64,000 bases of DNA from Janthinobacterium sp. 64 (GTDB lineage: Bacteria; Pseudomonadota; Gammaproteobacteria; Burkholderiales; Burkholderiaceae_D): the NCBI RefSeq assembly GCF_002813325.1, contig NZ_PHUG01000001.1:5704001-5768000 (forward strand), given 5' to 3'. Shown piece after piece: positions 9,919-46,800 of the stretch; within the stretch, counting starts at the first letter, position 1, and each line of letters opens with the position of its first letter. The translations under genes and the position numbers were made by a program. The notes under the pieces were generated by a model. It was not told where the DNA came from, searched no databases, and worked only from the letters and a program-made list of their open reading frames with translations.

Positions 9919-10010
<92 letters not shown>

Positions 10011-10342: not shown

Positions 10343-10434
<92 letters not shown>

Positions 10435-18106: not shown

Positions 18107-19936
18107 ATGACCGATTTGTCCGACCAAAAAGCCGCCGCCGCTGCCGCAGTGAATCCACCCGCTTCAGTGGGCCCGCAAAAGATGACGCCGTCCGAAGCGT
18201 TCGTGGAAACCCTGGCCGCCAATGGCGTGACCGACATGTTCGGCATCATGGGCTCGGCCTTCATGGACCCGATGGACATTTTCGCGCCCGCCGGCATCCG
18301 GCTGATCCCCGTCGTGCACGAGCAGGGCGCCGGCCACATGGCCGACGGCTATGCCCGCGTTTCGGGCCGCCATGGCGTCGTCATCGGCCAGAACGGCCCC
18401 GGCATCAGCAATTGCGTGACCGCCATCGCCGCCGCCTACTGGGCGCATACGCCCGTCGTCATCATCACGCCGGAAACGGGCACGATGAGCATGGGCCTGG
18501 GCGGCTTCCAGGAAGCGAACCAGTTGCCGATGTTCGAGGAATTCACGAAATACCAGGGCCACGTGACCCATCCCGCCCGCATGGCGGAATTTACGGGCCG
18601 CTGCTTCGACCGCGCCATGTCGGAAATGGGCCCGACGCAACTGAACATCCCGCGCGATTATTTCTATGGTGAAATCAAGGCGGAAATCCCCAAGCCGAAC
18701 CGCCTGGACCGTGGCGCCGGCGGCGAACACAGCCTCAATGAGGCGGCCGAACTGCTGGCGAAAGCCAAGTTCCCCGTGATCATTTCGGGCGGCGGCGTCG
18801 TCATGGGCGAAGCCATCGAGGAATGCAAGGCGCTGGCCGAGCGCCTCGGCGCACCCGTCGTCAACAGCTACCTGCACAACGACTCGTTTCCTGCCAGCCA
18901 TCCGCTGTGGTGCGGCCCGCTCGGCTACCAGGGTTCCAAGGCGGCCATGAAACTGATCGCCCAGGCCGACGTCGTCGTCGCTCTCGGTTCGCGCCTGGGC
19001 CCGTTCGGCACCTTGCCGCAGCACGGCATGGATTACTGGCCGAAGAATGCCAAGATCATCCAGATCGATGCGGATAACAAGATGCTGGGCCTGGTGAAAA
19101 AGATTTCGGTGGGCATCTGCGGCGACGCCAAGGCGGCCGCCAAAGCGATTCTTTCCCGCCTGGATGGCAAGAGCCTCGATTGCGACGCGACGCGCGAGGA
19201 GCGCTTTGCCACCGTGCAAGCCGAGAAGGCCGCGTGGGAAGACGAACTGGACAACTGGACGCACGAAAAAGATGCGTACAGCCTGGACATGATCGAAGAG
19301 CAAAAGAAAGAGCCGGGCAATTACTTGCACCCGCGCCAGGTCTTGCGCGAGCTGGAAAAAGCCATGCCGGAAGACGTGATGGTGTCGACCGACATCGGCA
19401 ACATCAACTCGGTGGCCAATAGCTATCTGCGCTTCGAAAAGCCGCGCAGCTTCTTTGCGGCGATGAGCTTTGGTAACTGCGGCTATGCGTTCCCGACCAT
19501 CATCGGCGCCAAGGTGGCCGCACCGCACCGTCCAGCCGTGTCGTATGCGGGCGACGGCGCCTGGGGCATGAGCTTGATGGAAACGATGACCTGCGTGCGC
19601 CACAACATCCCGGTGACGGCCGTGGTCTTCCACAACCGCCAGTGGGGCGCGGAAAAGAAAAACCAGGTCGATTTCTACAACCGCCGCTTTGTCGCCGGTG
19701 AGCTCGACAACCAGAGCTTTGCCGAGATTGCGCGGGCCATGGGCGCCGAAGGCATCACGGTCGACAAGCTGGAAGACGTGGGTCCAGCCTTGAAGAAAGC
19801 GATCGACATGCAAATGAATGAAGGCAAGACCACCATCATCGAAATCATGTGCACGCGCGAACTGGGCGACCCGTTCCGCCGCGATGCGCTGAGTAAACCT
19901 GTGCGGCATTTGGACAAGTATAAAGACTACGTTTGA
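18107..19936 (+). CDS. xsc: Sulfoacetaldehyde acetyltransferase, copy 1
   Basis: ThDP-dependent enzyme that converts sulfoacetaldehyde and phosphate to acetyl phosphate and sulfite, the C-S cleavage step of taurine and isethionate breakdown. The 609-residue product has the three-domain ThDP fold: PYR domain with the activating glutamate E72 in HEQGAGHMADGYAR, a central Rossmann-like domain (about 210-350), and the PP domain with GDGAW (482-486) and the distal Asn in VVFHN. Length fits Xsc (about 600). The start is supported by AAGGAG eight bases upstream. A nearly identical copy lies at 28059. Neighbours pta and tauE complete the pathway. Confidence 0.95.
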   Translation: MTDLSDQKAAAAAAVNPPASVGPQKMTPSEAFVETLAANGVTDMFGIMGSAFMDPMDIFAPAGIRLIPVVHEQGAGHMADGYARVSGRHGVVIGQNGPGISNCVTAIAAAYWAHTPVVIITPETGTMSMGLGGFQEANQLPMFEEFTKYQGHVTHPARMAEFTGRCFDRAMSEMGPTQLNIPRDYFYGEIKAEIPKPNRLDRGAGGEHSLNEAAELLAKAKFPVIISGGGVVMGEAIEECKALAERLGAPVVNSYLHNDSFPASHPLWCGPLGYQGSKAAMKLIAQADVVVALGSRLGPFGTLPQHGMDYWPKNAKIIQIDADNKMLGLVKKISVGICGDAKAAAKAILSRLDGKSLDCDATREERFATVQAEKAAWEDELDNWTHEKDAYSLDMIEEQKKEPGNYLHPRQVLRELEKAMPEDVMVSTDIGNINSVANSYLRFEKPRSFFAAMSFGNCGYAFPTIIGAKVAAPHRPAVSYAGDGAWGMSLMETMTCVRHNIPVTAVVFHNRQWGAEKKNQVDFYNRRFVAGELDNQSFAEIARAMGAEGITVDKLEDVGPALKKAIDMQMNEGKTTIIEIMCTRELGDPFRRDALSKPVRHLDKYKDYV

Positions 19937-21946: not shown

Positions 21947-21964
21947 TCTCCAAGCGTGCGGCGC

Positions 21965-21993
21965 TTGCAAAATAAATAAACTGCCGTTATATT
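21965..21993 (+). promoter_or_regulatory. Strong sigma-70-type promoter of the RNA repair genes
   Basis: TTGCAA (21965-21970), exactly 17 bases, TATATT (21988-21993). Transcription would begin near 22000, about 245 bases before the RNA ligase ATG, giving a long leader. Confidence 0.65.
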
Positions 21994-21996
21994 CCC

Positions 21997-22244
21997 GGTT
22001 CTTTCTAGAACCTCTTCCTTATTGGAGCCAAAAGTGCCTCGCTACTTCGCCATCACCTGCTAACGCTGACGAAATGCTCTTGCAGCATCGTTCGGCGCGT
22101 TGACGCCCCCGATTGCTGCGGCACTGTTTTTGTTCCATCCGCACACGTCTCCAAGACTCTGCTCTTGATCGTCCACGCCCGAACACGTCGTCAGCACCCC
22201 TGACCCTGTATGGACACGCCCCGGTGAACGCGGCGTGGGACGCT
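21997..22244 (+). promoter_or_regulatory. Long structured 5' leader of the RNA ligase gene
   Basis: The predicted transcript opens with a GGTTCT-TTCT-AGAACC hairpin (21997-22012). A TTGGAG Shine-Dalgarno then precedes a nine-codon frame GTG..TAA (22034-22063; peptide VPRYFAITC). A second nine-codon frame follows at 22074-22103 (MLLQHRSAR). Further stems are GTCAG/CTGAC (about 22188-22202) and CACGCC/GGCGTG (about 22215-22237) just before the ligase ATG. This looks like a regulatory leader (attenuation or RNA sensing). No known riboswitch or tRNA-like fold was recognised. Confidence 0.45.
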
Positions 22245-23132
22245 ATGTTTTTACAATCTTTGCCCTTATTCAAATACCCGCGCACGCCGCATCTGGAAGG
22301 CTCGCGCCTGCAGGACGGCGACGACGGCTCGGACCAGATGCCCCTGAAAAAGCTGGCCGGCCAGTACGTCGTCATCGAGGAAAAAATCGATGGCGCCAAC
22401 TCCGCCGTGTCGTTCAGCGATGCGGGCGAAGTGCTGCTGCAGTCGCGCGGCCACTATCTGGCGGGCGGCGGCAGCGAACGCCAGTTCAACCTGTTGAAAC
22501 CGTGGGCGCATGCGCACGAACCCGCCTTGCTGGGCTTGCTGGAAGACCAGTATGTGCTGTTTGGCGAATGGTCGTACAGCAAGCATTCCGTGTTTTACGA
22601 CCGGCTGCCCCATTACTTCAACGAGTTCGACGTGTATTGCCGCCGCCGCCAGATGTTCTTGTCGACGGCGCGCCGCCACGCCATGCTGGCCGGTTCGCCC
22701 GTGTTATCGGTTCCCGTGCTGTACGCGGGATTGATGCCCACGTCTCCCAAGCAGTTGTGGCAGCTGCTGCGCCATTCGCTGGCCAAGTCCCGCTTGTGGC
22801 GCGACGCTTTTGAAACCGCGGTGGCGCGCGAACGCTTGCCGCTGGACCTGTGCTGGAAGCAGACGGACAAGTCCGACCACGCGGAAGGCCTGTATCTGAA
22901 AGTGGAAGACGACGAGCAAGTGCTGGCCCGCTACAAGCTGGTGCGCCATGACTTTACGCAAACCATCCTCGACAGCGGCTCGCACCACAGCACGCGGCCC
23001 CTGATCCCGAACCAGCTGGCCGAGGGCGTCGACCTGTACGCGCCGCAGCCGCTGGTCACGTGGGAAAGCCTGGGTTTGCACACCTGCCGCTCGCTCGACG
23101 AACTGGCAGTATTTTCAAGGAGTACAAGATGA
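22245..23132 (+). CDS. ATP-dependent RNA ligase family protein
   Basis: 295-residue covalent nucleotidyltransferase of the RNA ligase superfamily. Motif I is EEKIDGANS with the AMP-accepting K47. The FGEW segment (near 102) fits motif III/IIIa, EGLYLKVED motif IV, and ARYKLVR motif V (paired lysine). It would seal 3'-OH/5'-PO4 RNA ends. The ATG at 22245 starts a conserved-looking N-terminus (FKYPRTPHLEGS); the longer frame to 22113 lies in the leader and is rejected. It overlaps the end-healing enzyme gene by ATGA, so the two form one repair unit. Confidence 0.85.
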   Translation: MFLQSLPLFKYPRTPHLEGSRLQDGDDGSDQMPLKKLAGQYVVIEEKIDGANSAVSFSDAGEVLLQSRGHYLAGGGSERQFNLLKPWAHAHEPALLGLLEDQYVLFGEWSYSKHSVFYDRLPHYFNEFDVYCRRRQMFLSTARRHAMLAGSPVLSVPVLYAGLMPTSPKQLWQLLRHSLAKSRLWRDAFETAVARERLPLDLCWKQTDKSDHAEGLYLKVEDDEQVLARYKLVRHDFTQTILDSGSHHSTRPLIPNQLAEGVDLYAPQPLVTWESLGLHTCRSLDELAVFSRSTR

Positions 23133-24268
23133 ACTGGAAAACCCTGCAGCAACTGGTGCCGCAAGCGGGCCAGTCGCCCGATTTCAGCGCCTGCCTGGCC
23201 GCTTTCCCGCAGCTGGAACTGGCCAAGACGACGCCGCAAAACCCTGTGTATCACGCGGAAGGCGATGTGTGGACGCATACGATGATGGTGGTCGAATCCC
23301 TGCTGGCCATGCCCGACTATCAGCAAGCCACGCGCGCGGAACAGGAAATCGTGTTTCTCGCCGCCTTGCTGCACGACGTGGCCAAGTGCAGCACCACGGT
23401 GATCGACCCCATCACGGGCGCCATCGGCCAGCCCGGCCACTCGCGCAAGGGCGCCCTCGATGCGCGCATCGCCCTGTGGGATTGCGACGTGCCGTTTGCC
23501 GCGCGCGAGGAAATCTGTCGCCTGATCAATGTGCACCAGGTGCCGTTCTTTGCGCTGGAAACGTCGCGGCGCGGCGTCACGCCCGAGTTCACCGTGCGCG
23601 AGTTGTCGTGGCAGGTGGATATCCGCCTGCTGGCCATGCTGGCCGAAGCCGATATTCGCGGGCGCATCTGCCCCGATCCGCAGCGCATTCTGGATGCCAT
23701 CGAGCTGTTCCGCGAACTGGCGCGCGAGGAAGGCTGTTATGGCCAGCGCAGGGTCTTTGTCGACGATCACACGCGCGTCAAATATTTTCGCGGTGCCGAG
23801 GCGCATCCCGATTACTCGCTGTTCCAGGAGCCGGGTTCGCGCGTGATCGTCATGTCGGGCTTGCCCGCGTCGGGCAAGAACACGTGGGTGGACAAGCACC
23901 ATCCGCGCCTGCCCGTCGTGTCGTTTGACGATGCGCGGACGGCCTTGGGCTTGAAGCACGGCAAGAACGAGGGGCAGGTGGGCGACTATGCGGAAGAGCG
24001 GGCGCGCGAACTGTTGCGCCGTGGCGAGCCGTTCGTGTGGAACGCCACGCATCTGTCCAAGCTGATGCGCGAAAAGACGCTCAACCTGCTTTACAAGTAC
24101 AACGCGCAGGTGGAGCTTGTGTACCTGGAACAGCCGCGCAAGGAGTTACTGCGGCGCAACGGCCAGCGCGACACGTCGCTCAGCAACAAAAAGCTGCAGG
24201 GCATGCTGTGGAACTGGGAAATTCCGCTGCCGATGGAAGCGCACGCCGTGCGCTACGAGGTGAGTTGA
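23129..24268 (+). CDS. HD-Pnk type RNA end-healing enzyme (HD phosphohydrolase plus polynucleotide 5'-kinase)
   Basis: 379-residue bifunctional protein. The N-terminal HD domain (about 20-185) has the first His in DVWTHTMMV (near 52), the H82-D83 pair in LLHDVAK, and later His residues at GHSRKG and INVHQVPF. The C-terminal P-loop kinase (about 235-375) has GLPASGKNT (244-252, K250) and a D-D-A-R segment typical of polynucleotide kinases. The architecture matches Runella HD-Pnk, which removes 2',3'-cyclic or 2'-phosphates and phosphorylates 5'-OH ends. It overlaps the ligase gene by four bases; a TCAAGGAG site precedes its ATG. The stop is four bases from the convergent VWA gene. Confidence 0.88.
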   Translation: MNWKTLQQLVPQAGQSPDFSACLAAFPQLELAKTTPQNPVYHAEGDVWTHTMMVVESLLAMPDYQQATRAEQEIVFLAALLHDVAKCSTTVIDPITGAIGQPGHSRKGALDARIALWDCDVPFAAREEICRLINVHQVPFFALETSRRGVTPEFTVRELSWQVDIRLLAMLAEADIRGRICPDPQRILDAIELFRELAREEGCYGQRRVFVDDHTRVKYFRGAEAHPDYSLFQEPGSRVIVMSGLPASGKNTWVDKHHPRLPVVSFDDARTALGLKHGKNEGQVGDYAEERARELLRRGEPFVWNATHLSKLMREKTLNLLYKYNAQVELVYLEQPRKELLRRNGQRDTSLSNKKLQGMLWNWEIPLPMEAHAVRYEVS

Positions 24269-24272
24269 ACCG

Positions 24273-26003
24273 CTAGCGTTTGCGTCCACCCAGCAACTGC
24301 GCGATCTCGCTGAACAGCTCATTGTTCAGCGAGGCGGGCAGGGTGGTGGCCAGGCTGCGGCTGTAGTAGGCGCCCAGGTCCAGGCCCAGTCCCAGTCCGC
24401 AGATTTCCACGGCACCCTGCGCTTCGCGGCGCGCCACCACTTGTTTCAGATGCTGGGCCAGGTAAAACTCGTCGTTGGCCAGATTCGTGGCCGTATCCAT
24501 CGGGCAACCGTCGGAGACGACGAGCAGGATGCGCCGCCGTTCCGGGCGCGCCAGCATACGGCTGCACGCCCAGTCCACGGCTTCGCCATCGACGCCTTCG
24601 CGGTACAAATCCGCCTTCAGCAGGGCCGCGATGTCTGGCCGCGCGCGGCGCCAGCTCGTGTCGCCATCCTTGAAGACCATGTGCACGAGTTCGTTCAAGC
24701 GGCCCGGATTGGCGGGAGAACGGGCGCGCATCCAGTCACGTTTGACTCTGCCCCCATTCCACGCGCCCGTCGTAAAGCCCAGCAACTCGGTGGCAACGCC
24801 GGCCTGGTCCAGCGCGCGCAGCAAAATGTCGAGCAGCACGGCCACGGATTGCGCGTGCGTCTTCATGGAACCGGAGCAATCGACGAGAAAGGACACCAGG
24901 CAATCGGATTGCGGCAGGAATTGTTCCTTGCGAAACAGCCTGCGCTCGGACGGCGAACTGATCAGCTGCGCCAGCCGCCGGCCATCGATATACCCCTCTT
25001 CTTCGCCAAACGACCAGCCGTCGCGCTGGGGCACGGCCAGCAATTGCGTGAACCGCCGCGCCAGGCGGGCCGTGTTGATGCCCAGGCTGGCGATGCGGGC
25101 ATCCATGCGTTCGCGGTAGTCGAGCAGCAGGGCGCGGCGCACGAGATCGCCCGCTTTTTCCTCGCGGTCATATGCCGTGGAGTAAGCCTTGTAGCCGCCA
25201 TCGCCATCGCTGAAGGCGCGGCTCTCGCCCAGCGGGGCGGCGTCTGGAATATTGTCGTTATCGCTGTCGAAATCGAGCAGCAGCTTGAAGGCCGCCTGCG
25301 CCTTGGCGTCGCCCCCATCGTCCTGGCTACCGTCGCGTGCCGTTTGCGCGTCTTTCAGCATGGCATCGACTGCGTGGGCGATGGCCAGAGAGTGGCGCGC
25401 AAAGGCCGCCTGGTCGGCACGGTGGCGGCGCAATCCGGCCAGGTCGCCGCTCAGTGTTGAGGACACCGACCAGCGCGTGGCTTCAATAAAATCTTCCGTT
25501 TTTTCCAGCACGGGCCTGGCCGTCAGGCGCGACCAGCACATCTGGAACACTGTATACAAGAGCAAGCCCGATGCGCCTTCCGCCAGGCCGGAATCGTAGA
25601 ACGCGTGCGACCAGGCCGTGAAACGGTGGCGCAGGTTGGCGATCACGCCGGCATGTTGATCGGGCGCAAGCGTTTCCACCCTGAACTGCTCCAGCAGCTC
25701 GAAGACCAGGCGCGCCACGGGGTCAAGCGGACACAGGGACTTGTGCAGGGCGGCATCCGTATGCAGCAGGCGCAGGGCCACGCTGTCGGCCGCGCCGCGC
25801 AAGGATGGCAAATCCTGCAGCGCCGCATCGGGCTGCAGATGGGCCGCGTGGATGGGTAGCGGGCGGTGGCCGTCGTGCAAACGCCGGCCACGGTAGCGTA
25901 TCGAGGGAGAGGCGCTGAGTGCGCGGATGGCGCCCGCGCACAGCTCATCCGTTTCCTGCTGCTCGCGCGTGTAGGCGGCAGGAACGATGGCTTCGGCGCT
26001 CAT
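24273..26003 (-). CDS. CobT-like VWA-domain protein
   Basis: 576-residue soluble protein. The N-terminal two-thirds is helical and charged, with an acidic stretch around LDFDSDNDNIPDAA (about 245-260), as in CobT. The C-terminal von Willebrand A domain (about 365-570) has the metal-site motif D375-C-S-G-S379 and a later IAALL/VSDG pattern (ILLVVSDGCP). CobT proteins work with a CobS-type AAA+ ATPase in cobalt insertion, but homologous pairs serve other remodelling tasks. It overlaps the upstream MoxR/CobS-like gene by four bases. No cobalamin genes are nearby, so a cobaltochelatase role is unsupported. Confidence 0.82.
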   Translation of the reverse strand: MSAEAIVPAAYTREQQETDELCAGAIRALSASPSIRYRGRRLHDGHRPLPIHAAHLQPDAALQDLPSLRGAADSVALRLLHTDAALHKSLCPLDPVARLVFELLEQFRVETLAPDQHAGVIANLRHRFTAWSHAFYDSGLAEGASGLLLYTVFQMCWSRLTARPVLEKTEDFIEATRWSVSSTLSGDLAGLRRHRADQAAFARHSLAIAHAVDAMLKDAQTARDGSQDDGGDAKAQAAFKLLLDFDSDNDNIPDAAPLGESRAFSDGDGGYKAYSTAYDREEKAGDLVRRALLLDYRERMDARIASLGINTARLARRFTQLLAVPQRDGWSFGEEEGYIDGRRLAQLISSPSERRLFRKEQFLPQSDCLVSFLVDCSGSMKTHAQSVAVLLDILLRALDQAGVATELLGFTTGAWNGGRVKRDWMRARSPANPGRLNELVHMVFKDGDTSWRRARPDIAALLKADLYREGVDGEAVDWACSRMLARPERRRILLVVSDGCPMDTATNLANDEFYLAQHLKQVVARREAQGAVEICGLGLGLDLGAYYSRSLATTLPASLNNELFSEIAQLLGGRKR

Positions 26004-26974
26004 GCCTGGCTCGCCAGCAATTCCTCATTGAAACAGCGCTGGTAATACTCGGCCACCATGGGCCGCTCGGCCTCGTCGCATTTGTTGAGGAAGGACAGGC
26101 GGAAGGCCAGGGCCGGGTCGCGGAAGATCTGGCAGTTTTCCGCCCACGTGATCACCGTGCGCGGCGACATCAGGCAGGCCAGGTCGCCCGCCGCATAGCC
26201 GTGGCGCGTGAGGCTGGCCACGGCCACCATGCTGGCGGCCAGCTGGCGGCCCGCCGCGTCGTTCAGGGCGGGAACACGCGCCAGGACGATTTCCGTTTCC
26301 TCGTCCTGCGGCAAATAGTTCAGGGTGGCAACGATGTTCCAGCGGTCGATCTGTGCGTGATTGAGCACTTGGGTGCCATGGTACATGCCGTTCAGGTTGC
26401 CCAGGCCCACCGTATTCGAGGTGGCGAACAAACGGAAGTGGGGATGCGGCGTGATGACGCGGTTCTGGTCGAGCAAAGTAAATTTGCCGTCGCGTTCGAG
26501 GATGCGCTGGATGACGAACATCACGTCGGGGCGGCCCGCATCGTATTCGTCGAAGATCAGGGCCACGGGGCGCTGCAAGGACCAGGGCACGATGCCTTCC
26601 TGGAATTCGGTGACTTGCTGCTGCTCGCGCAGCACGATGGCGTCCTTGCCGACCAGATCCAGGCGGCTGATGTGGCCGTCCAGATTGACCCGCACGCAAG
26701 GCCAGTTCAGGCGCGCCGCCACTTGCTCGATGTGCGTGGACTTGCCCGTGCCGTGCAAGCCCTGCACCATCACCCTGCGGTTGTGGGTGAAACCGGCCAG
26801 TATCGCCAGGGTCACATCCTTGTTGAAGCGGTAGGCGGGATCGATGTCGGGCACGTGCGGGTCGCGCTCCGTGAAGACGGGCACGAGCAGGTCGCTGTCG
26901 ATAGCGAACAGGCCGCGCACGGACTGCATGGTTTGCGCCGCTGCGGCGGGGGGATGTTGGCGTGAATCTGGCAC
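26000..26974 (-). CDS. CobS/MoxR-like AAA+ ATPase
   Basis: 324-residue AAA+ protein with an N-terminal CobS-like segment (VPVFTERDPHVPDIDPAY), Walker A GLHGTGKST (72-80, K78), Walker B VALIFDEYDAG, and sensor-1 FRLFATSNTVGLGN. It starts with GTG, supported by AGGAGAACAAG directly upstream. It partners with the VWA protein (ATGA overlap) as a remodelling ATPase/substrate adaptor pair like CobST, NorQD or CbbQO. It begins 40 bases after the iclR stop on the same strand, so iclR-moxR-vwa is a likely operon. Confidence 0.84.
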   Translation of the reverse strand: MPDSRQHPPAAAAQTMQSVRGLFAIDSDLLVPVFTERDPHVPDIDPAYRFNKDVTLAILAGFTHNRRVMVQGLHGTGKSTHIEQVAARLNWPCVRVNLDGHISRLDLVGKDAIVLREQQQVTEFQEGIVPWSLQRPVALIFDEYDAGRPDVMFVIQRILERDGKFTLLDQNRVITPHPHFRLFATSNTVGLGNLNGMYHGTQVLNHAQIDRWNIVATLNYLPQDEETEIVLARVPALNDAAGRQLAASMVAVASLTRHGYAAGDLACLMSPRTVITWAENCQIFRDPALAFRLSFLNKCDEAERPMVAEYYQRCFNEELLASQA

Positions 26975-28009: not shown

Positions 28010-28058
28010 TTTTTTGATAATTCGAACGAAGCTTATCACCACAGACCAGGAGACACCC

Positions 28059-29885
28059 ATGAATGACATGACCGAGCAAAAAGCCGCCGCCGCAGTGGCC
28101 ACCGCAGCCGCCCCTAGCGGCCCGCAAAAGATGACGCCTTCCGAAGCGTTCGTGGAAACCCTGGCCGCCAATGGCGTGACCGACATGTTCGGCATTATGG
28201 GCTCGGCCTTCATGGACCCGATGGATATCTTCGCCCCCGCCGGCATCCGGCTGATCCCCGTCGTGCACGAGCAGGGCGCCGGCCACATGGCTGACGGCTA
28301 TGCCCGCGTTTCGGGCCGCCATGGCGTCGTCATCGGCCAGAATGGCCCCGGCATCAGCAATTGCGTCACGGCCATTGCCGCCGCCTACTGGGCGCACACG
28401 CCCGTCGTGATCATCACGCCGGAGACGGGCACGATGAGCATGGGCCTGGGCGGCTTCCAGGAAGCGAACCAGTTGCCGATGTTCGAGGAATTTACGAAAT
28501 ATCAAGGTCACGTCACCAATCCCGCCCGCATGGCGGAATTCACGGGCCGCTGCTTTGACCGCGCCATGTCGGAAATGGGTCCGACGCAATTGAACATCCC
28601 GCGCGACTATTTTTATGGCGAAATCAAGGCGGAAATCCCCAAGCCGAACCGCCTGGACCGTGGCGCCGGCGGCGAGCAAAGCCTCAATGACGCGGCCGAA
28701 CTGCTGGCGAAAGCCAAGTTCCCCGTCATCATCTCGGGCGGCGGCGTCGTCATGGGCGAAGCGATCGAGGAATGCAAGGCCCTGGCCGAGCGCCTCGGTG
28801 CGCCCGTGGTGAACAGCTATCTGCACAACGACTCGTTTCCCGCCAGCCACCCGCTGTGGTGCGGCCCGCTCGGCTACCAGGGTTCGAAAGCTGCCATGAA
28901 ACTGATCGCCCAGGCCGACGTCGTCGTCGCGCTCGGCTCGCGTCTGGGACCGTTCGGCACCTTGCCGCAGCACGGCATGGATTACTGGCCGAAGAATGCG
29001 AAGATCATCCAGATCGACGCGGACAACAAGATGCTGGGCCTGGTGAAAAAGATTTCGGTGGGCATCTGCGGCGACGCCAAGGCGGCCGCCAAAGCCATCC
29101 TGGCACGCCTGGACGGCAAGACGCTCGATTGCGACGCGACGCGCGACGAGCGCTTTGCCACCGTGCAAGCAGAAAAAGCCGCGTGGGAAAACGAACTGGA
29201 CAACTGGACGCACGAAAAAGATGCGTACAGCCTGGACATGATCGAAGAGCAAAAGAAAGAGCCGGGCAATTATCTGCACCCGCGCCAGGTCTTGCGCGAG
29301 CTGGAAAAAGCCATGCCGGAAGATGTGATGGTGTCGACCGACATCGGCAACATCAACTCGGTGGCCAATAGCTATCTGCGCTTCGACAAGCCGCGCAGCT
29401 TCTTTGCGGCGATGAGCTTTGGTAACTGCGGCTATGCGTTCCCGACCATCATCGGCGCCAAGGTGGCCGCACCGCACCGTCCAGCCGTGTCGTATGCGGG
29501 CGACGGCGCCTGGGGCATGAGCCTGATGGAAACGATGACCTGCGTGCGCCACAACATTCCCGTCACGGCCGTGGTGTTCCACAACCGCCAGTGGGGCGCG
29601 GAAAAGAAAAACCAGGTCGATTTCTACAACCGCCGCTTCGTGGCCGGTGAGCTCGACAACCAGAGCTTTGCCGAGATTGCGCGGGCCATGGGCGCCGAAG
29701 GCATCACGGTCGACAAGCTGGAAGATGTGGGTCCGGCCTTGAAGAAAGCGATCGACATGCAAATGAATGAAGGCAAGACGACCATCATTGAAATCATGTG
29801 CACACGCGAATTGGGCGACCCGTTCCGCCGCGATGCGTTGAGCAAGCCTGTGCGGCATCTGGACAAATATAAAGATTACGTTTGA
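28059..29885 (+). CDS. xsc: Sulfoacetaldehyde acetyltransferase, copy 2
   Basis: 608-residue paralogue of the enzyme at 18107. Apart from the first 20 residues, only about ten substitutions are visible, mostly conservative (for example HVTH to HVTN, E to D, S to A), and all ThDP and active-site motifs are kept. Third-base differences are scattered throughout, so the copies diverged slightly or were homogenised by gene conversion. The ATG at 28059 follows CAGGAGACACCC; the upstream frame to 27978 covers the operator and is rejected. It is followed by tauX and tauY, whereas copy 1 is followed by pta and tauE. Confidence 0.95.
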   Translation: MNDMTEQKAAAAVATAAAPSGPQKMTPSEAFVETLAANGVTDMFGIMGSAFMDPMDIFAPAGIRLIPVVHEQGAGHMADGYARVSGRHGVVIGQNGPGISNCVTAIAAAYWAHTPVVIITPETGTMSMGLGGFQEANQLPMFEEFTKYQGHVTNPARMAEFTGRCFDRAMSEMGPTQLNIPRDYFYGEIKAEIPKPNRLDRGAGGEQSLNDAAELLAKAKFPVIISGGGVVMGEAIEECKALAERLGAPVVNSYLHNDSFPASHPLWCGPLGYQGSKAAMKLIAQADVVVALGSRLGPFGTLPQHGMDYWPKNAKIIQIDADNKMLGLVKKISVGICGDAKAAAKAILARLDGKTLDCDATRDERFATVQAEKAAWENELDNWTHEKDAYSLDMIEEQKKEPGNYLHPRQVLRELEKAMPEDVMVSTDIGNINSVANSYLRFDKPRSFFAAMSFGNCGYAFPTIIGAKVAAPHRPAVSYAGDGAWGMSLMETMTCVRHNIPVTAVVFHNRQWGAEKKNQVDFYNRRFVAGELDNQSFAEIARAMGAEGITVDKLEDVGPALKKAIDMQMNEGKTTIIEIMCTRELGDPFRRDALSKPVRHLDKYKDYV

Positions 29886-40825: not shown

Positions 40826-43800
40826 ATGAACCGCATCTACCGCTCCATCTGGAACCAGGCCACGGGCGCTTACGCCGCCGTTTCCGAAAACGTCAAATCC
40901 GCCGGCAAGCGCTCGATGCCAGGATGCAGCGGGGGCGGGGCGCATTTCGCCTTGACCAGCATGGCGGCGGCGCTGATGCTCGGCTATGGCTCACTGGCGC
41001 TGGCCGGGCCGGCGGGCGGCACGGTGGTGGCAGGCCAGGCCAGCATCACCGGCGCACCGGGCGCCACGGTGATCCGGCAGGGCAGCCAGAATGCCGTCAT
41101 CAACTGGGCCAATTTCAATATCAACAAGTGCGAGTCGGTGCAATTCGTGCAGCCGAACAGCAATGCGGTAGCCCTGAACCGCGTGCTGGGCAGCGATGGC
41201 ACGACCATCCTGGGCAACTTGTCGGCCAACGGCAAGGTGTTTATCGTCAACCCGAATGGTGTGCTGTTCGGCCAGGGAGCCTCGGTCAACACGGCCGGCC
41301 TGGTGGCCTCCACCCTGGATATTTCCAACGCCGACTTCATGGCCGGCAAGTACCAGTTTGCCGGCAATGGCACGGGTAAAGTCCTGAACCAGGGCTCGAT
41401 CAGCGCGCCAGGCGGCTATGTGGCCTTGCTGGGCGCCAACGTGTCGAACGAGGGCACGATCCAGGCACGCCTGGGCTCGGTTGCCCTGGCGGCGGGCAGG
41501 GCCATCACGCTGGACGTGGCCGGCGACGGCTTGCTCAATGTCGCCGTCAACGCGGGCGCCGTGGGCGCTTTGGTCAGCAATGGCGGCATGATCAAGGCTG
41601 ACGGCGGCAGCGTCGTATTGACGGCGCAGGCGGCCGGCGACTTGCTGAAAACAGTGGTCAACAACACGGGCGTGATCGAGGCGCAGACGATAGACACGCG
41701 CAGCGGCACGATCAAGTTGCTGGGCGACATGCAGACCGGTACTGTCAACGCGGGCGGCACGCTGGACGCCAGCGCGCCTGGCGGTGGTAACGGCGGTTTT
41801 ATTGACACCTCGGCTGCGCATGTAAAAATCGATGATGCGCTGAAAGTGACGACGGCCGCGCCGAAGGGCTTGGCCGGCACCTGGCTGATCGACCCAAGCG
41901 ACTTCAATATCGCCGTTTCGGGCGGCGACATGACGGGCGCCTTCCTCAGCAATTCCTTGAAATCGGGCAATGTGCGGATCCAGAGCGTGTCCGGCGGCAG
42001 CGGTACGCAAGGCAACATCAACGTCAACGACAACATCAACTGGATCGCCAACAAGCTGACCCTGACGGCGCAGAACAATATCAACATCAACAAGGCCATG
42101 CGTGGCGCGGGCACGGCCAGCCTGGCGCTCGAATATGGCCAGAGTGGGGTCGCCGCCGGCAATCTGGCCACGTACAACGTCAAGGCGGAAGTGGATCTGC
42201 CATCGGGTAATAACTTCAGCACCAAACTGGGCAGCGATGGCGGCGTGACCGTGTATCAGGTCATTAACAGTTTGGGCGCCTTCAACAGCAGCAGCGGCAG
42301 CGATGTGCAGGGCATGCAGGGCAATTTGTCCGGTAATTATGTGCTGGGCAGTAATATCGATGCCAGCGTCACGGGCAGCTGGGACAGCGGCCAGGGATTT
42401 GTGCCGATCGGTAACGCAGGTACGCCATTCACGGGCAAGTTTGACGGCCTGGGCCATGAGCTGTATGGCTTGACCATCAACCGCGCCGAGACGCCGGCTG
42501 CGATGTTCGGCAATATTGGCCTGGCCGGCAGCGTGCACAACTTGAGCTTGAGAAATGTCAACATCACGGGTTCGCAAGCGATGTATGGCGCCGCTTATAC
42601 CGACATCGGCGCGCTGGCTGGCTACAATGCGGGCACGATCAACAATGTGAGCAGCAGCGGCGCCGTGCATGGTTCTGGCTATATCAACATGGGCGCGCTG
42701 GTGGGCACCAATGCGGGCACGATCAGCAACAGCCGCGCGGCAGGCACGGTCGTTGCCGGTGGTTTTGGCGCGGCAGGCGGCCTGGTGGGCGTGAATGCGG
42801 CCGGCGGCTTGATCAAGAACAGTTCCAGCGCCGTGGCTGCCACATCCACCAATTATTTCGCTGGCGGCCTTGCCGTCTACAACAGAGGCACGATCAGCGA
42901 CAGCTATGCCACGGGCGCCGTCAGCGTTGGCAGCACGGGCGGCAGCTATGGCGGCGGCCTGGCGGCCATTAACACGGGCGAAGGCACGGTCACGAACAGC
43001 TATGCGACGGGCAATGTCACGGGAACTTCCGGCCTGGGCGGCTTGCTGGGCCGGATAGAAAGCGGCGCGGTCACGAACAGCTATGCCACCGGCAATGTGA
43101 CTGGTAGCGGCAATGGTATCGGCGGCCTGGTCGGGGTGTCCGCCGGTCCGATAAGCAACAGCTATGCCACCGGCAATGTGACGGGCAACTCCACCGTGGG
43201 CGGCGTGGTGGGCTACAACATTGGTGTTGCCCTCACCAATGTATATTATTCGGGCAAGCTCACGACGACAGGCATTAATAACGGTGCTATTGTTGGCGAT
43301 CACAATGGTGGTTCCATCGTTAATGCTTACTTCGACAGTTCCCTGAATCCGGGGCTAACCGCCGTTGGCGTGGCAAGCATTGACGCCAGCACCATTGCCC
43401 AGGGCTTGAGCGCGGCGCAGATGTTGGTACGGAGCAACTATGCGGGATTCAATTTCACCGGCACGGCCGGCGCGGCAGGCAACAACTGGGTGATCGTCAG
43501 CGGCGACGGTTCCATCAATGGCGCCAGCGCCGGCACGCGCCCCATGCTGGCGTCGGAATGGTCGAATACCATCAATTCCACGCACCAGTTGCAATTGATG
43601 GCGATGAGCAAGGCCGCCAGCTATACGCTGGGCAGCAGCTTCAGCGCAGCCAGCACGGCCGCGAACGGTAACGATGTGTGGGGCAGTACGGGCTTCATCC
43701 CGGTCGGCACGGCAGGGTCGGCCTTCACGGGTAGCCTCGACGGCAGCGGGCATATTGTTTCCAACCTCAATATTATCAAGTCGGGCGTGGCGGGCGTGGG

Positions 43801-46800
43801 CTTGTTTGGCGTCGTCGGCAGCGGCGGCGTGATCGCCAATGTGGGCTTGTCTGGCGGCACGATCAGCGGCGGCGACAACACGGGCGCCCTGGTCGGCACG
43901 AATGGCGGCAGCGTCAGCGGCAGCTTTGCCACCAGTGCCGTCACGGGCGCCAACAATGTCGGCGGCCTGGTGGGCACGAGTACGGGCACGCTCAAGGATA
44001 GCTATGCCAGCGGCGCGGTGACTGGCAGCAGCGGCACAGGCGGCTTGCTGGGCAGCAACAGCGGCACCGTCACCACCAGCTATGCGAATGGCAGCGTGAG
44101 CGGCGCCGGCGGCGGCCTGGTTGGCACGGGCGCAGGCAGCGTCACGGGCAGTTACTGGGATAGCACGGCCAGCGGCAAGGCAACGAGCGCCGGCGGCACG
44201 AGCGTGACCACGAGCGGACTCAATACGCTGACGAACTACACGGGCGCAGGCTGGGATCTGGACCAGATGTGGGTCGCCTACGATGGCCAGAGTGCGCCTT
44301 TCCTGCGTTCGTTCATGCAGCAGATCGCCGTGCGCGTTTCTTACGACAGCAAGGTGTATGACGGCGTCGCCTATGCTGGCGGCAGCAATAGCGTCACGTA
44401 TTCGAACACGGTGGCAGGCGCCAGCTTGCTCGGTACGGTCGCTTATGCGGGCAATGCCGCTGGCGCCGTGAATGCGGGTACGTATGGGGTGATGGCCAGC
44501 GGCTTGTACTCTTCGGGCGGGCAGTCCGGCTATGCGCTCAGCTATATCGATGGCGGACTGGTGATCACGCAGCGCCAGCTCAGCCTGAACGGCGCCGGCG
44601 CCGGCAACAAGGTCTATGACGGCAACACCACCGCCATCATCAGTGGCGGCACGTTGGCGGGCCTGTTGGCTGGGGATCTTGGCAATGTCAACCTGCTCTC
44701 CTTGCTGGGGACCTATGCCAGCAAGAATGTCGGCAATGGCATCGCCGTGAATGCGACTGCCACCCTCGGCGGCAGCGCAGCCGGCAACTATATCTTGGCG
44801 CCGCTGACTGGCGTGAGTGGCAACATCACGCCGGCGACGATTAGCAGCATCAGCGGCATCCTGGCCGGCAGCAAGGTCTACGACGGCTTGACTGGCGCTG
44901 CGCTCGACACCAGCGCGGCTGTATTAGCCGGCAAGATCGGCAGTGACGCGCTGACGTTGAGCGGCACGGGCACTTTCGACAACAAGAATGCCGGCACCGG
45001 AAAAACAGTCAGCATCAGCGGTTTGTTCCTGGGCGGCGCCGATGCAGGCAACTATATCCTTGCTGGCACGACGGGTAGCGCGCTGGCCGATATCACGGCC
45101 AAGGCCCTGACCATCACGGGTGTCACCACCAGCAACCGCGTGTATGACGGCACGCGCAATGCGGCCTTGTCGGGCGGAACATTGAGTGGCCTGGTAGGTG
45201 GAGAAACCCTGGGCCTGTCCGGCTTGTCGGGGGTGTTTGACGACAAGAACGTGGGCACGGGCAAGAGCGTGACCGTGAGCGGCGCCACGCTGGCCGATGG
45301 CACTGGGCTGGCCAGCAACTATACGGTCAGCAATCCGGGCGCCCTGACGGCCGATATCAGCAAGGCAACCATCAGCAGCGTGACGAACATCACGGCAAAC
45401 AGCAAGGTGTATGACGCGAACACCAAGGCCACCATCAATGCGGGCGGCGCCACGTTCAACGGCATGTTCAGCGGCGACAGCCTGTCGTTCAGCGCGACGA
45501 CGGCCACGTTTGCCGACAAGAACGTCGGCAACGGCAAGACGGTGGCTGTGAGCGGCATCGCCCTGGCCGGCACGGATGCGGGCAATTACAATCTGACGCT
45601 CAGCACCGGCAGCGGCAGCGGCGATATCACGCCGAAGGCGCTGACGATCACCGGCATGTCGGCGGTCAATAAAGTCTACGACGGCAACACCAAGGCGACC
45701 TTGTCGGGCGGTTCGATCAGCGGCCTGGTCGGTTCGGAAACGCTGGGCGTGACGGGACTTTCAGCAAGTTTTTCCGACAAGAATGCCGGCGCCGGCAAAA
45801 CCGTCATCGCCAGCGGCTCGACCCTGGTCAATGGCGGCAATGGTGGCCTCGCCAGCAACTATACGATCAGCAACCCAAGCGGACTGAGCGCAAACATCAC
45901 GCCCAAGGCGCTGACGGTGACGGGTATGACGGCTGGCAACAAAGTCTATGACGGCCTGCTCGACGCGACCTTGTCCGGTGGAAGCCTGTCGGGTCTGGTC
46001 AGCGGTGAAACGCTGCTGCTGTCCGGTGCAACGGGCGTGTTCAGCGACAAGAACGCAGGCAGCAACAAAACCATCGTCGTCAGCGGCAGCAGCCTGGCCG
46101 ACGGCACGGGGCTGGCCAGCAATTACACGGTCAGCAACCCGACCACCGTGAAGGCCGGCATCACGCAAAAAGCCTTGACGGTAAGCGGCGTGCTGGCCAG
46201 CGACAAGACCTACGACGGCAATACCAAAGCCAGCCTGTCGGGCGGCACTCTGGATGGCCTGGTGGGCGGTGAAACACTGGGATTGACAGGGCAGGTGGGC
46301 AGTTTCAGTGACCAGAACGCGGGCACGGGCAAGGCCGTCGCGGTGACGGGCGCGACCCTGGTCGATGGCACTGGGCTGGCCAGCAATTATTCGGTCAGCA
46401 ACGCCACCGGCGTGACGGCCACTATTGCGCAAAAGGCGTTGACCGTCAGCGGCGTGAGCGCGAGCAACCGCATGTATGACGGCACGCTCGATGCAACCCT
46501 GTCGGGCGGTACCTTGAGCGGCTTGGTGGGCGCGGAAACCCTGGGCCTGTCCGGTTTGAGCGGCGTGTTCGCCGACAAGAACGTGGGCACGGGCAAGAGC
46601 GTGACGGTGAGCGGCGCCACGCTGACCGATGGCACTGGGCTGGCCAGCAACTATACGGTCAGCAATCCGGGCGCCCTGACGGCCGATATCAGCAAGGCAA
46701 CCATCAGCAGCGTGACGAACATCACGGCAAACAGCAAGGTGTATGACGCGAACACCAAGGCCACCATCAATGCAGGCGGCGCCACGTTCAATGGCATGTT

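Follow-up and report, generated by a model that had tools for sequence, protein, structure and literature searches.

We analyzed a 64,000-nucleotide (nt) stretch of DNA from Janthinobacterium sp. 64 (contig NZ_PHUG01000001.1, positions 5,704,001 to 5,768,000), which we call the window. On its forward strand, two overlapping genes that appear to encode an ATP-dependent RNA ligase and an HD-Pnk, a protein with an N-terminal HD phosphohydrolase domain and a C-terminal polynucleotide kinase domain, follow a gap of 298 nt. A preliminary description of this DNA identified the two genes and missed the gap, which we found to be a conserved, structured leader. As read from the sequence, a putative promoter, the leader, the ligase and the HD-Pnk make up a self-contained cassette inside a Janthinobacterium taurine catabolism block. 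We lean slightly toward the view that the leader is a translational attenuator, which would couple the synthesis of RNA end-healing and sealing enzymes to the progress of ribosomes.

The ligase and HD-Pnk genes

The ligase gene (22245-23132, + strand) encodes a protein of 295 amino acids that, in a profile search, matched the Pfam family PF09414 (RNA_ligase) with 111.4 bits against a cut-off of 27. Nucleotidyl transferases are described by named motifs, such as that of the lysine of KxDG; here the predicted nucleotidyl-lysine is K47 of EEKIDG, and K47, D49, G50, R68, E108, E214, K219 and K231 were all invariant in an alignment of 23 ligase sequences. A structural model of the protein, with a predicted local distance difference test (pLDDT) score of 89, found its best fold matches in the Naegleria RNA ligase and T4 Rnl2 (E 3e-7 to 2e-6), at moderate template modeling (TM) scores of about 0.45, and DNA ligases ranked below RNA ligases. 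As modeled, the fold is nearest to that of nick-sealing RNA ligases. A sequence search of solved structures with the ligase gave no match.

The HD-Pnk gene (23129-24268, + strand) encodes 379 amino acids, with matches above the Pfam cut-offs to AAA_33 (66.1 bits, residues 239-350) and HD (24.9 bits, residues 47-140). Invariant among 14 sequences were the P-loop lysine K250, the HD pair H82/D83, and H42, H50, H104, H136 and D175. The protein aligned with Deinococcus proteins at about 30% with 94-95% coverage. Its model was of moderate confidence (pLDDT 68, with a poor C-terminus); the top match was an HD-containing tRNA-processing enzyme, the Clostridium thermocellum polynucleotide kinase stood lower in the list, and the sequence search of solved structures returned only weak matches for the kinase. 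The ligase and HD-Pnk genes overlap by 4 nt (ATGA, 23129-23132), and an AAGGAG site for HD-Pnk sits within the 3' end of the ligase gene.

The profile searches and alignments thus agree with the gene identities in the preliminary description, which had named K47 and K250 and had noted the four-base overlap. By homology to their families, the HD domain would remove 3'-phosphates or 2',3'-cyclic phosphates, the kinase domain would phosphorylate 5'-OH ends, and the ligase would seal the healed RNA ends. This end-healing and sealing role, also proposed earlier, gains support from the domains, the invariant residues and the predicted folds of both proteins.

Linkage, spread and partner exchange

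A scan seeded with the ligase returned at least 544 relatives. The 80 best of them, which come from Beta- and Gammaproteobacteria, are our named loci. HD-Pnk lay downstream of the ligase on the same strand in all 80. Between the stop of the ligase and the start of HD-Pnk as aligned, the distance was at most 63 nt in 78 loci, 141 nt in one and 504 nt in one, and 33 loci shared the gap of -4 seen in the window. Among 244 genomes of the family, 28 contained the ligase, and the same 28 contained HD-Pnk, adjacent by coordinates; these genomes and the named loci overlap partly in species. A neighborhood survey, which the preliminary description had proposed, therefore finds the pair conserved together, and its conservation in 80/80 named loci excludes chance pairing. 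One family genome carries an apparently decayed cassette (G292:C1:2747819-2749020), in which the ligase match is split in two and the HD-Pnk match contains an in-frame stop.

The pair is also found on plasmids. Plasmid records contained HD-Pnk in 26 cases, the ligase in 20 and both in 11, close together in 9 of these. A small gene lies between ligase and HD-Pnk on a Variovorax plasmid, and on two Deinococcus plasmids an annotated RNA ligase, confirmed as PF09414 for one of them, overlaps HD-Pnk by 4 nt. On a plasmid of Pseudomonas sp. FeN3W (L168:2495-4791) the order is reversed, HD-Pnk coming first and the annotated RNA ligase second, again with a 4-nt overlap. A class-level sample of 140 genomes proved too wide for the ligase, with four matches, namely the window's genome and three partial matches. 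Among 50,697 phage records we found one HD-Pnk match and four weak ligase matches, and on these few matches we rejected a phage origin of the pair. Clustering of the open reading frames (ORFs) around the 80 loci revealed no third conserved partner: beyond ligase, HD-Pnk and an ORF antisense to HD-Pnk, no cluster occurred in more than 13 loci, although the simple ORF caller used here picks antisense ORFs and weak partners may escape it. Some of the clusters, of up to 9 loci, span genera.

Trees built from 47 of the 80 loci indicate that the two genes have at times exchanged partners. The ligases of Achromobacter and Ralstonia group with those of Pseudoduganella and Gilliamella, whereas the HD-Pnks of the same loci (L069, L071, L072, L074 and L079) group with those of Janthinobacterium and Massilia; the two genes are still adjacent in these loci. 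Forced agreement of the ligase and HD-Pnk trees was rejected by the approximately unbiased (AU) test (p 0.0005 for the ligase, 0.0019 for HD-Pnk) and was no longer rejected once the five Achromobacter/Ralstonia rows were removed (p 0.09 and 0.39), the clades tested having been chosen after the trees were seen. Adjacency has thus outlasted an exchange of partners, which argues that the products work together. We conclude that ligase and HD-Pnk form an ordinary RNA-repair cassette, widespread and of a known kind. The preliminary description had regarded the coupling of HD-Pnk to such a ligase as not commonly described; this view finds no support, given the Deinococcus operon described in the available portion of a published paper (PMC1997131) and the same overlap on the two Deinococcus plasmids.

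The leader contains a putative promoter and a short upstream ORF

The leader opens with a putative sigma-70 promoter (21965-21993, + strand), proposed from its sequence and from the conservation of the leader, in which a -35 box TTGCAA (21965-21970) and a -10 box TATATT (21988-21993) are separated by a 17-bp spacer. Position 21965, where the preliminary description had begun its feature, is the first base of the TTGCAA box. Upstream of the ligase, the local homology to 7 of the 14 Janthinobacterium loci starts at 21964 and spans the whole gap; in those seven the DNA upstream of the promoter differs. The leader is also kept in J. psychrotolerans (78% identity, from 21981), at a locus without taurine genes.

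Downstream of the promoter lies a short upstream ORF (uORF) of nine codons (22034-22063, + strand), with a GTG start, a TAA stop and the predicted peptide fM-P-R-Y-F-A-I-T-C. It is led by a Shine-Dalgarno site, GGAG (22024-22027, + strand), that is identical in the 14 aligned Janthinobacterium loci. Other genera have a short ORF, mostly of 8 or 9 codons, in the matching position. Its peptide is different there: Variovorax has VPRFAVITL, Comamonas has MSRLFVTC, Gilliamella has MPVVNTLS, Bordetella has VPRLFVIR and, behind a weak Shine-Dalgarno site, Achromobacter has VSAIRQFA. From one lineage to another, ATG alternates with GTG as the start, any of the three stop codons may be used and the length is 24 or 27 nt (21 nt in two), which is the pattern expected of a translated uORF.

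We assessed the uORF with a strict rule, requiring a Shine-Dalgarno site, 6-13 codons, and a stop that starts at most 12 nt before CYGAC. It was found in 60 of 81 leaders, the window's included (76/81 under a relaxed rule), and in 0.5% of dinucleotide shuffles. With one leader for each of 28 genus labels, some of them vaguer than a genus and the window counted as its own label, 18 leaders complied, compared with a shuffle mean of 0.19 and a maximum of 2 over 100 rounds. In real DNA the rule held in 52 of 17,506 random genomic windows (0.3%) and, among 735 regions upstream of other ORFs, in 9. When a 7-bp helix was required in addition, 56/81 leaders still complied, as did 10 of these random windows and 2 of these upstream regions.

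LexA boxes showed no excess over shuffles. At gathering thresholds, Rfam returned nothing for positions 17-33 kb of the window or for 7 relatives, and a search of the leader that admitted E values up to 10 was equally empty. Eight of 14 Janthinobacterium leaders carry a sigma-54-like motif, CGGCAC-N5-TTGCT, some 126 nt upstream of the ligase; the copy in the window (about 22119-22134) departs from it.

Two helices share bases in the leader

One nucleotide past the uORF stop begins the 5' arm of a helix, P1 (GCTGACGA, 22065-22072, + strand), whose 3' arm (TCGTCAGC, 22188-22195, + strand) lies well downstream. In consensus, GCYGACRA after the uORF stop pairs with TYGTCRGY 64-246 nt downstream. 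Both anchors were present in 70/81 leaders, and where uORF and P1 were both found the stop lay 0-4 nt before the base of P1 or overlapped it. The arms change together: Janthinobacterium has GCTGACGA/TCGTCAGC, many others have GCCGACGA/TCGTCGGY, and Variovorax has GCCGACAAC/GTTGTCGGT. The pairing of P1 beat permutation in 21 genus representatives (p 0.001, with relatedness not controlled); in an alignment of 15 leaders, P1 formed in 98% of cells and was recovered by RNAalifold unguided. RNAalifold on the same number of leaders also placed a small hairpin, P2 (ATGCT/AGCAT, 22074-22088, + strand), inside P1; it hardly varies and so is weakly evidenced.

The 3' arm of P1 serves in part as the 5' arm of a second helix, B, in which it pairs immediately upstream of the ligase ATG and thereby covers the ligase start; in the window the 3' arm of B is GGACG (22238-22242, + strand). 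Helix B formed in 87% of cells, with 5 of its 8 pairs changed on both sides among 15 sequences. Its covariation was 0.214 versus 0.120, a score that none of 500 shuffles reached, and RNAalifold found it unguided when given the start region alone. A covariance model of the B region, run against 690 kb, matched only ligase starts below E = 0.03; these matches came from 20 of 32 sources, of which 13 had been used to train the model and 7 are closely related to those. Because P1 and B share bases (alignment columns 369-374), the two helices are mutually exclusive. Variovorax, Gilliamella and Achromobacter have, in place of helix B, a hairpin that covers the Shine-Dalgarno site of the ligase. No recognizable Shine-Dalgarno site precedes the ligase in several genera.

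On the comparative sequence evidence, the leader has good support as a conserved element that includes a uORF and P1; for helix B the support is good in a subset of genera.

Reach of the leader

After the pattern had been set, 13 further genome loci were fetched, two of which (L150 and L160) are probably the same as L026 and L019 and were left out. Ten of the 11 new loci, comprising seven from one further genus, G359 and two from Janthinobacterium, show the uORF and P1; G122 does not. Over the 13 loci the coded rule found 4 uORFs and 11 helices, and the remainder were read by eye, as was needed where the uORF stop overlaps the P1 arm or where, in G359, the arm has changed. The change in G359, to GCCAACGA with a matching TCGTTGGC, is compensated on that reading. 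In two cassettes on Pseudomonas aeruginosa plasmids, the rule detected the helix and reading by eye the uORF. The reversed Pseudomonas pair shows no uORF/P1 leader. Judged from these sequences, the leader is a feature of the main Beta- and Gammaproteobacterial lineage and not of all ligase/HD-Pnk pairs. As far as we could check it is undescribed, and among the open-license papers listed we met no description of leader-peptide control of RNA-repair genes.

Related cassettes occur in Gilliamella, Frischella and Snodgrassella (L050, L053, L057, L058, L059, L060, L062, L063, L066, L067, L075 and L085), and some of these loci encode the same uORF peptide, MPVVNTLS. We take these three genera to be bee-gut symbionts of different classes, and the related cassettes suggest transfer inside the bee-gut community.

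A proposed model of translational attenuation

The attenuator that we favor would work as follows. A ribosome positioned on the uORF stop would mask the 5' arm of P1, leaving the 3' arm free to pair at the ligase start, as helix B or, in other lineages, as an anti-Shine-Dalgarno hairpin, so that the ligase would be off. If ribosomes stalled early in the uORF, or were scarce, as they might be when tRNA or rRNA has been cut, P1 would form, the ligase start would be released and the repair enzymes would be made. Damage to tRNA or to ribosomes would in this way lead to more synthesis of RNA-repair enzymes. Folding predictions with the corresponding bases blocked are consistent with this scheme: in 65/77 leaders, predicted access to the ligase start was greater when the ribosome stalls early than when it occupies the stop. 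Access was 0.337 in the free leader, and blocking random inner stretches gave 0.33, near the free value.

Several observations weigh against this reading. The predicted change in access is small (mean 0.371 for an early stall, 0.291 with the stop occupied). Bordetella, Massilia, Undibacterium and Rhizobacter lack it, and in Pelomonas, Roseateles, Ideonella and Chitinimonas it runs slightly the other way. Even Janthinobacterium has a weak helix B, with about 4 bp in the window compared with 7-8 bp in, for example, Bordetella and Comamonas; the RNAalifold energy of helix B is weak, with no covariation bonus overall; and for Janthinobacterium, Achromobacter, Ralstonia and Hydrogenophaga the local start hairpin barely beats shuffled sequence, if at all. 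The covariation of P1 is modest, 11 of 500 shuffles being as good, and those shuffles ignore relatedness. Seven leaders lack a P1 anchor (the Pelomonas group, Acidovorax, Ideonella and one Burkholderiales), four lack a uORF call, and no leader was found in one Variovorax, three alphaproteobacterial, one cyanobacterial and two Deinococcus plasmids. Finally, the uORFs do not all share any one codon. No one tRNA is therefore read in all lineages, which makes the sensing of a single tRNA unlikely.

Three other explanations of the leader were considered. It might bind a protein, perhaps the ligase or HD-Pnk regulating its own synthesis, with the short ORF incidental or serving only to keep ribosomes off. 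The conservation of P1 and P2 and the high variability of the uORF peptide would suit such a role, whereas the Shine-Dalgarno site, the interchange of starts and stops, the codon-multiple length and the near-fixed spacing from stop to P1 all point to translation, and we consider protein binding unlikely. Alternatively, a ribosome that ends the uORF at the base of P1 could be carried over the folded domain to the ligase start, in a shunt-like re-initiation for which uORF translation and P1 would both be needed. The position of the stop, 0-4 nt before P1 or overlapping it, and the missing ligase Shine-Dalgarno sites of several genera fit this idea, which nevertheless leaves unexplained why helix B should share bases with P1 and covary; moreover, the precedents are viral RNAs in eukaryotic cells and we have met none for bacteria. 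A shunt thus seems decidedly unlikely.

Control of transcription, in which the uORF would select either an antiterminator, P2, or a terminator in the manner of amino-acid operons, was the first idea for the leader. By eye, P2 in the window overlaps a longer possible stem with a T-run within a few bases after it. Other, GC-rich leaders read in the same way show no T-run, and the idea was set aside for this reason, though kept as a rival; the element that covaries is helix B, which would mask a start codon. We regard transcription control as improbable.

If the leader follows the state of ribosomes, the signal for ligase/HD-Pnk operons would become directly testable, and leader-peptide attenuation would be joined with the repair of RNA cut by toxins or defense nucleases. 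We tentatively extend the model to suggest that the cell's own ribosomes could act as the detector of RNA damage: their stalling on, or absence from, the uORF when tRNA, rRNA or mRNA is cut would refold the leader and turn on repair, giving a protein-free sensor that Beta- and Gammaproteobacteria share and that travels with a mobile repair cassette. This broader idea is possible, and we hold it with less conviction than the attenuator itself.

The taurine block and the CobS/CobT-like neighbors

The preliminary description placed the cassette in a taurine gene block, and the window indeed encodes TauA and two Xsc copies above NCBIfam cut-offs, as well as TauE. The two xsc copies (18107-19936 and 28056-29885; 1708/1830 bases identical) flank the ligase/HD-Pnk cassette and a CobT-like and CobS-like AAA+/VWA pair (CobST, 24273-26974). 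This pair resembles the aerobic cobaltochelatase CobN-CobS-CobT in its CobS-like and CobT-like sequences, but both score below equivalog cut-offs, and CobN (PF02514) is absent from the source genome (G000; 6.3 Mb, rated 100% complete), although the same search matches 87/244 family genomes. Among family genomes with CobT, CobN occurs in 4/5 outside the genus and in 0/16 inside Janthinobacterium.

The preliminary description had also coupled the cassette to these ATPase/VWA genes, and we asked how probable it is that all four genes form one system. In its favor, 13 of 14 named Janthinobacterium loci have all four as neighbors, and 16 family genomes contain them all. The two pairs, by contrast, converge, pointing at each other, and CobS/CobT lie near the ligase in 13/80 named loci, in Janthinobacterium only, leaving 67 ligase loci without CobST in the DNA examined. 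IclR adjoins CobS in 20/20 strong family loci whether or not the ligase is present, including four genomes without a ligase match; a 21st, weak match (G278) is without IclR. In an order-level sample of 300 genomes, 13 others had CobT at E <=1e-30, with IclR nearby in 10/13, xsc in 9/13 and the ligase in none. Altogether, 24 CobST regions from outside the genus (these 13, 7 from the class sample and 4 from the family) contained IclR in 14 cases, xsc in 11 and ligase/HD-Pnk in none; for the class sample, nine genomes matched, and the window's own and one weak match were left out. In G295 (L114), one of the four family genomes without a ligase match, xsc, pta, CobT, CobS, IclR, xsc, SnoaL, oxidoreductase and ABC genes stand in the window's order and other genes fill the position of the ligase pair, making it a block without the cassette. 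A four-gene system is thus largely refuted and highly improbable, and the link of the ATPase/VWA genes to the cassette is a neighborhood accident.

Because IclR and xsc recur beside CobST and the ligase does not, CobST is instead a frequent part of taurine blocks. The annotation is corrected accordingly: the "cobaltochelatase" neighbors belong with taurine catabolism and have no CobN partner. CobST is possibly a chaperone for a taurine-block enzyme, which is a guess. In the open-license literature searched we found no paper that treats taurine, xsc and cobaltochelatase together.

Elsewhere in the window, two identical tRNA-Ser(CGA) genes (9919-10008 and 10343-10432; 90/90 bases) lie about 330 bp apart, and positions 40826-49645 form a single ORF of 2939 codons.

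Comparison with known systems

HD-Pnk of Runella slithyformis, studied by Munir and Shuman, reportedly combines an HD phosphatase with a polynucleotide kinase, and such genes are said to be frequent in operons with a ligase. The HD-Pnk encoded in the window shares this architecture. In Deinococcus radiodurans, the available portion of a 2007 paper describes an operon of DRB0100 (ligase), DRB0099 (macro-like) and DRB0098 (HD-Pnk), framed there as DNA repair after irradiation (PMC1997131). The window cassette is like that operon, as the excerpt presents it, in joining an ATP-dependent ligase with an HD and kinase protein, and unlike it in having no macro-domain gene between them, for which the 4-nt overlap leaves no room. 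The two Deinococcus plasmid loci likewise have no macro-like gene between the pair, and show no uORF/P1 leader.

The Pnkp1-Rnl-Hen1 complex heals RNA ends with domains other than those of HD-Pnk. According to the part of the source available, it carries out bacterial end healing and sealing of ribotoxin-cut RNA (PMC4411300). The complex so described has a methylase, whereas no Hen1-like gene was recognized beside the window pair. The RNA repair operon rtcBA is controlled by RtcR, a CARF/AAA+ protein that, in the sections available, takes its signal from broken tRNA and acts at transcription (PMC7790460). Control of rtcBA, on that partial account, thus lies with a protein at transcription, whereas control of the window cassette is predicted to lie with a leader uORF and competing helices.

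Leader-peptide attenuators of the erm and trp types consist of a short uORF and two exclusive RNA folds, with the position of the ribosome as the switch. The leader described here is unlike them in that its uORF peptide is hardly conserved between genera. At the level of sequence it resembles them in its short uORF with a ribosome binding site and in its mutually exclusive helices, one of which is predicted to mask a downstream start.

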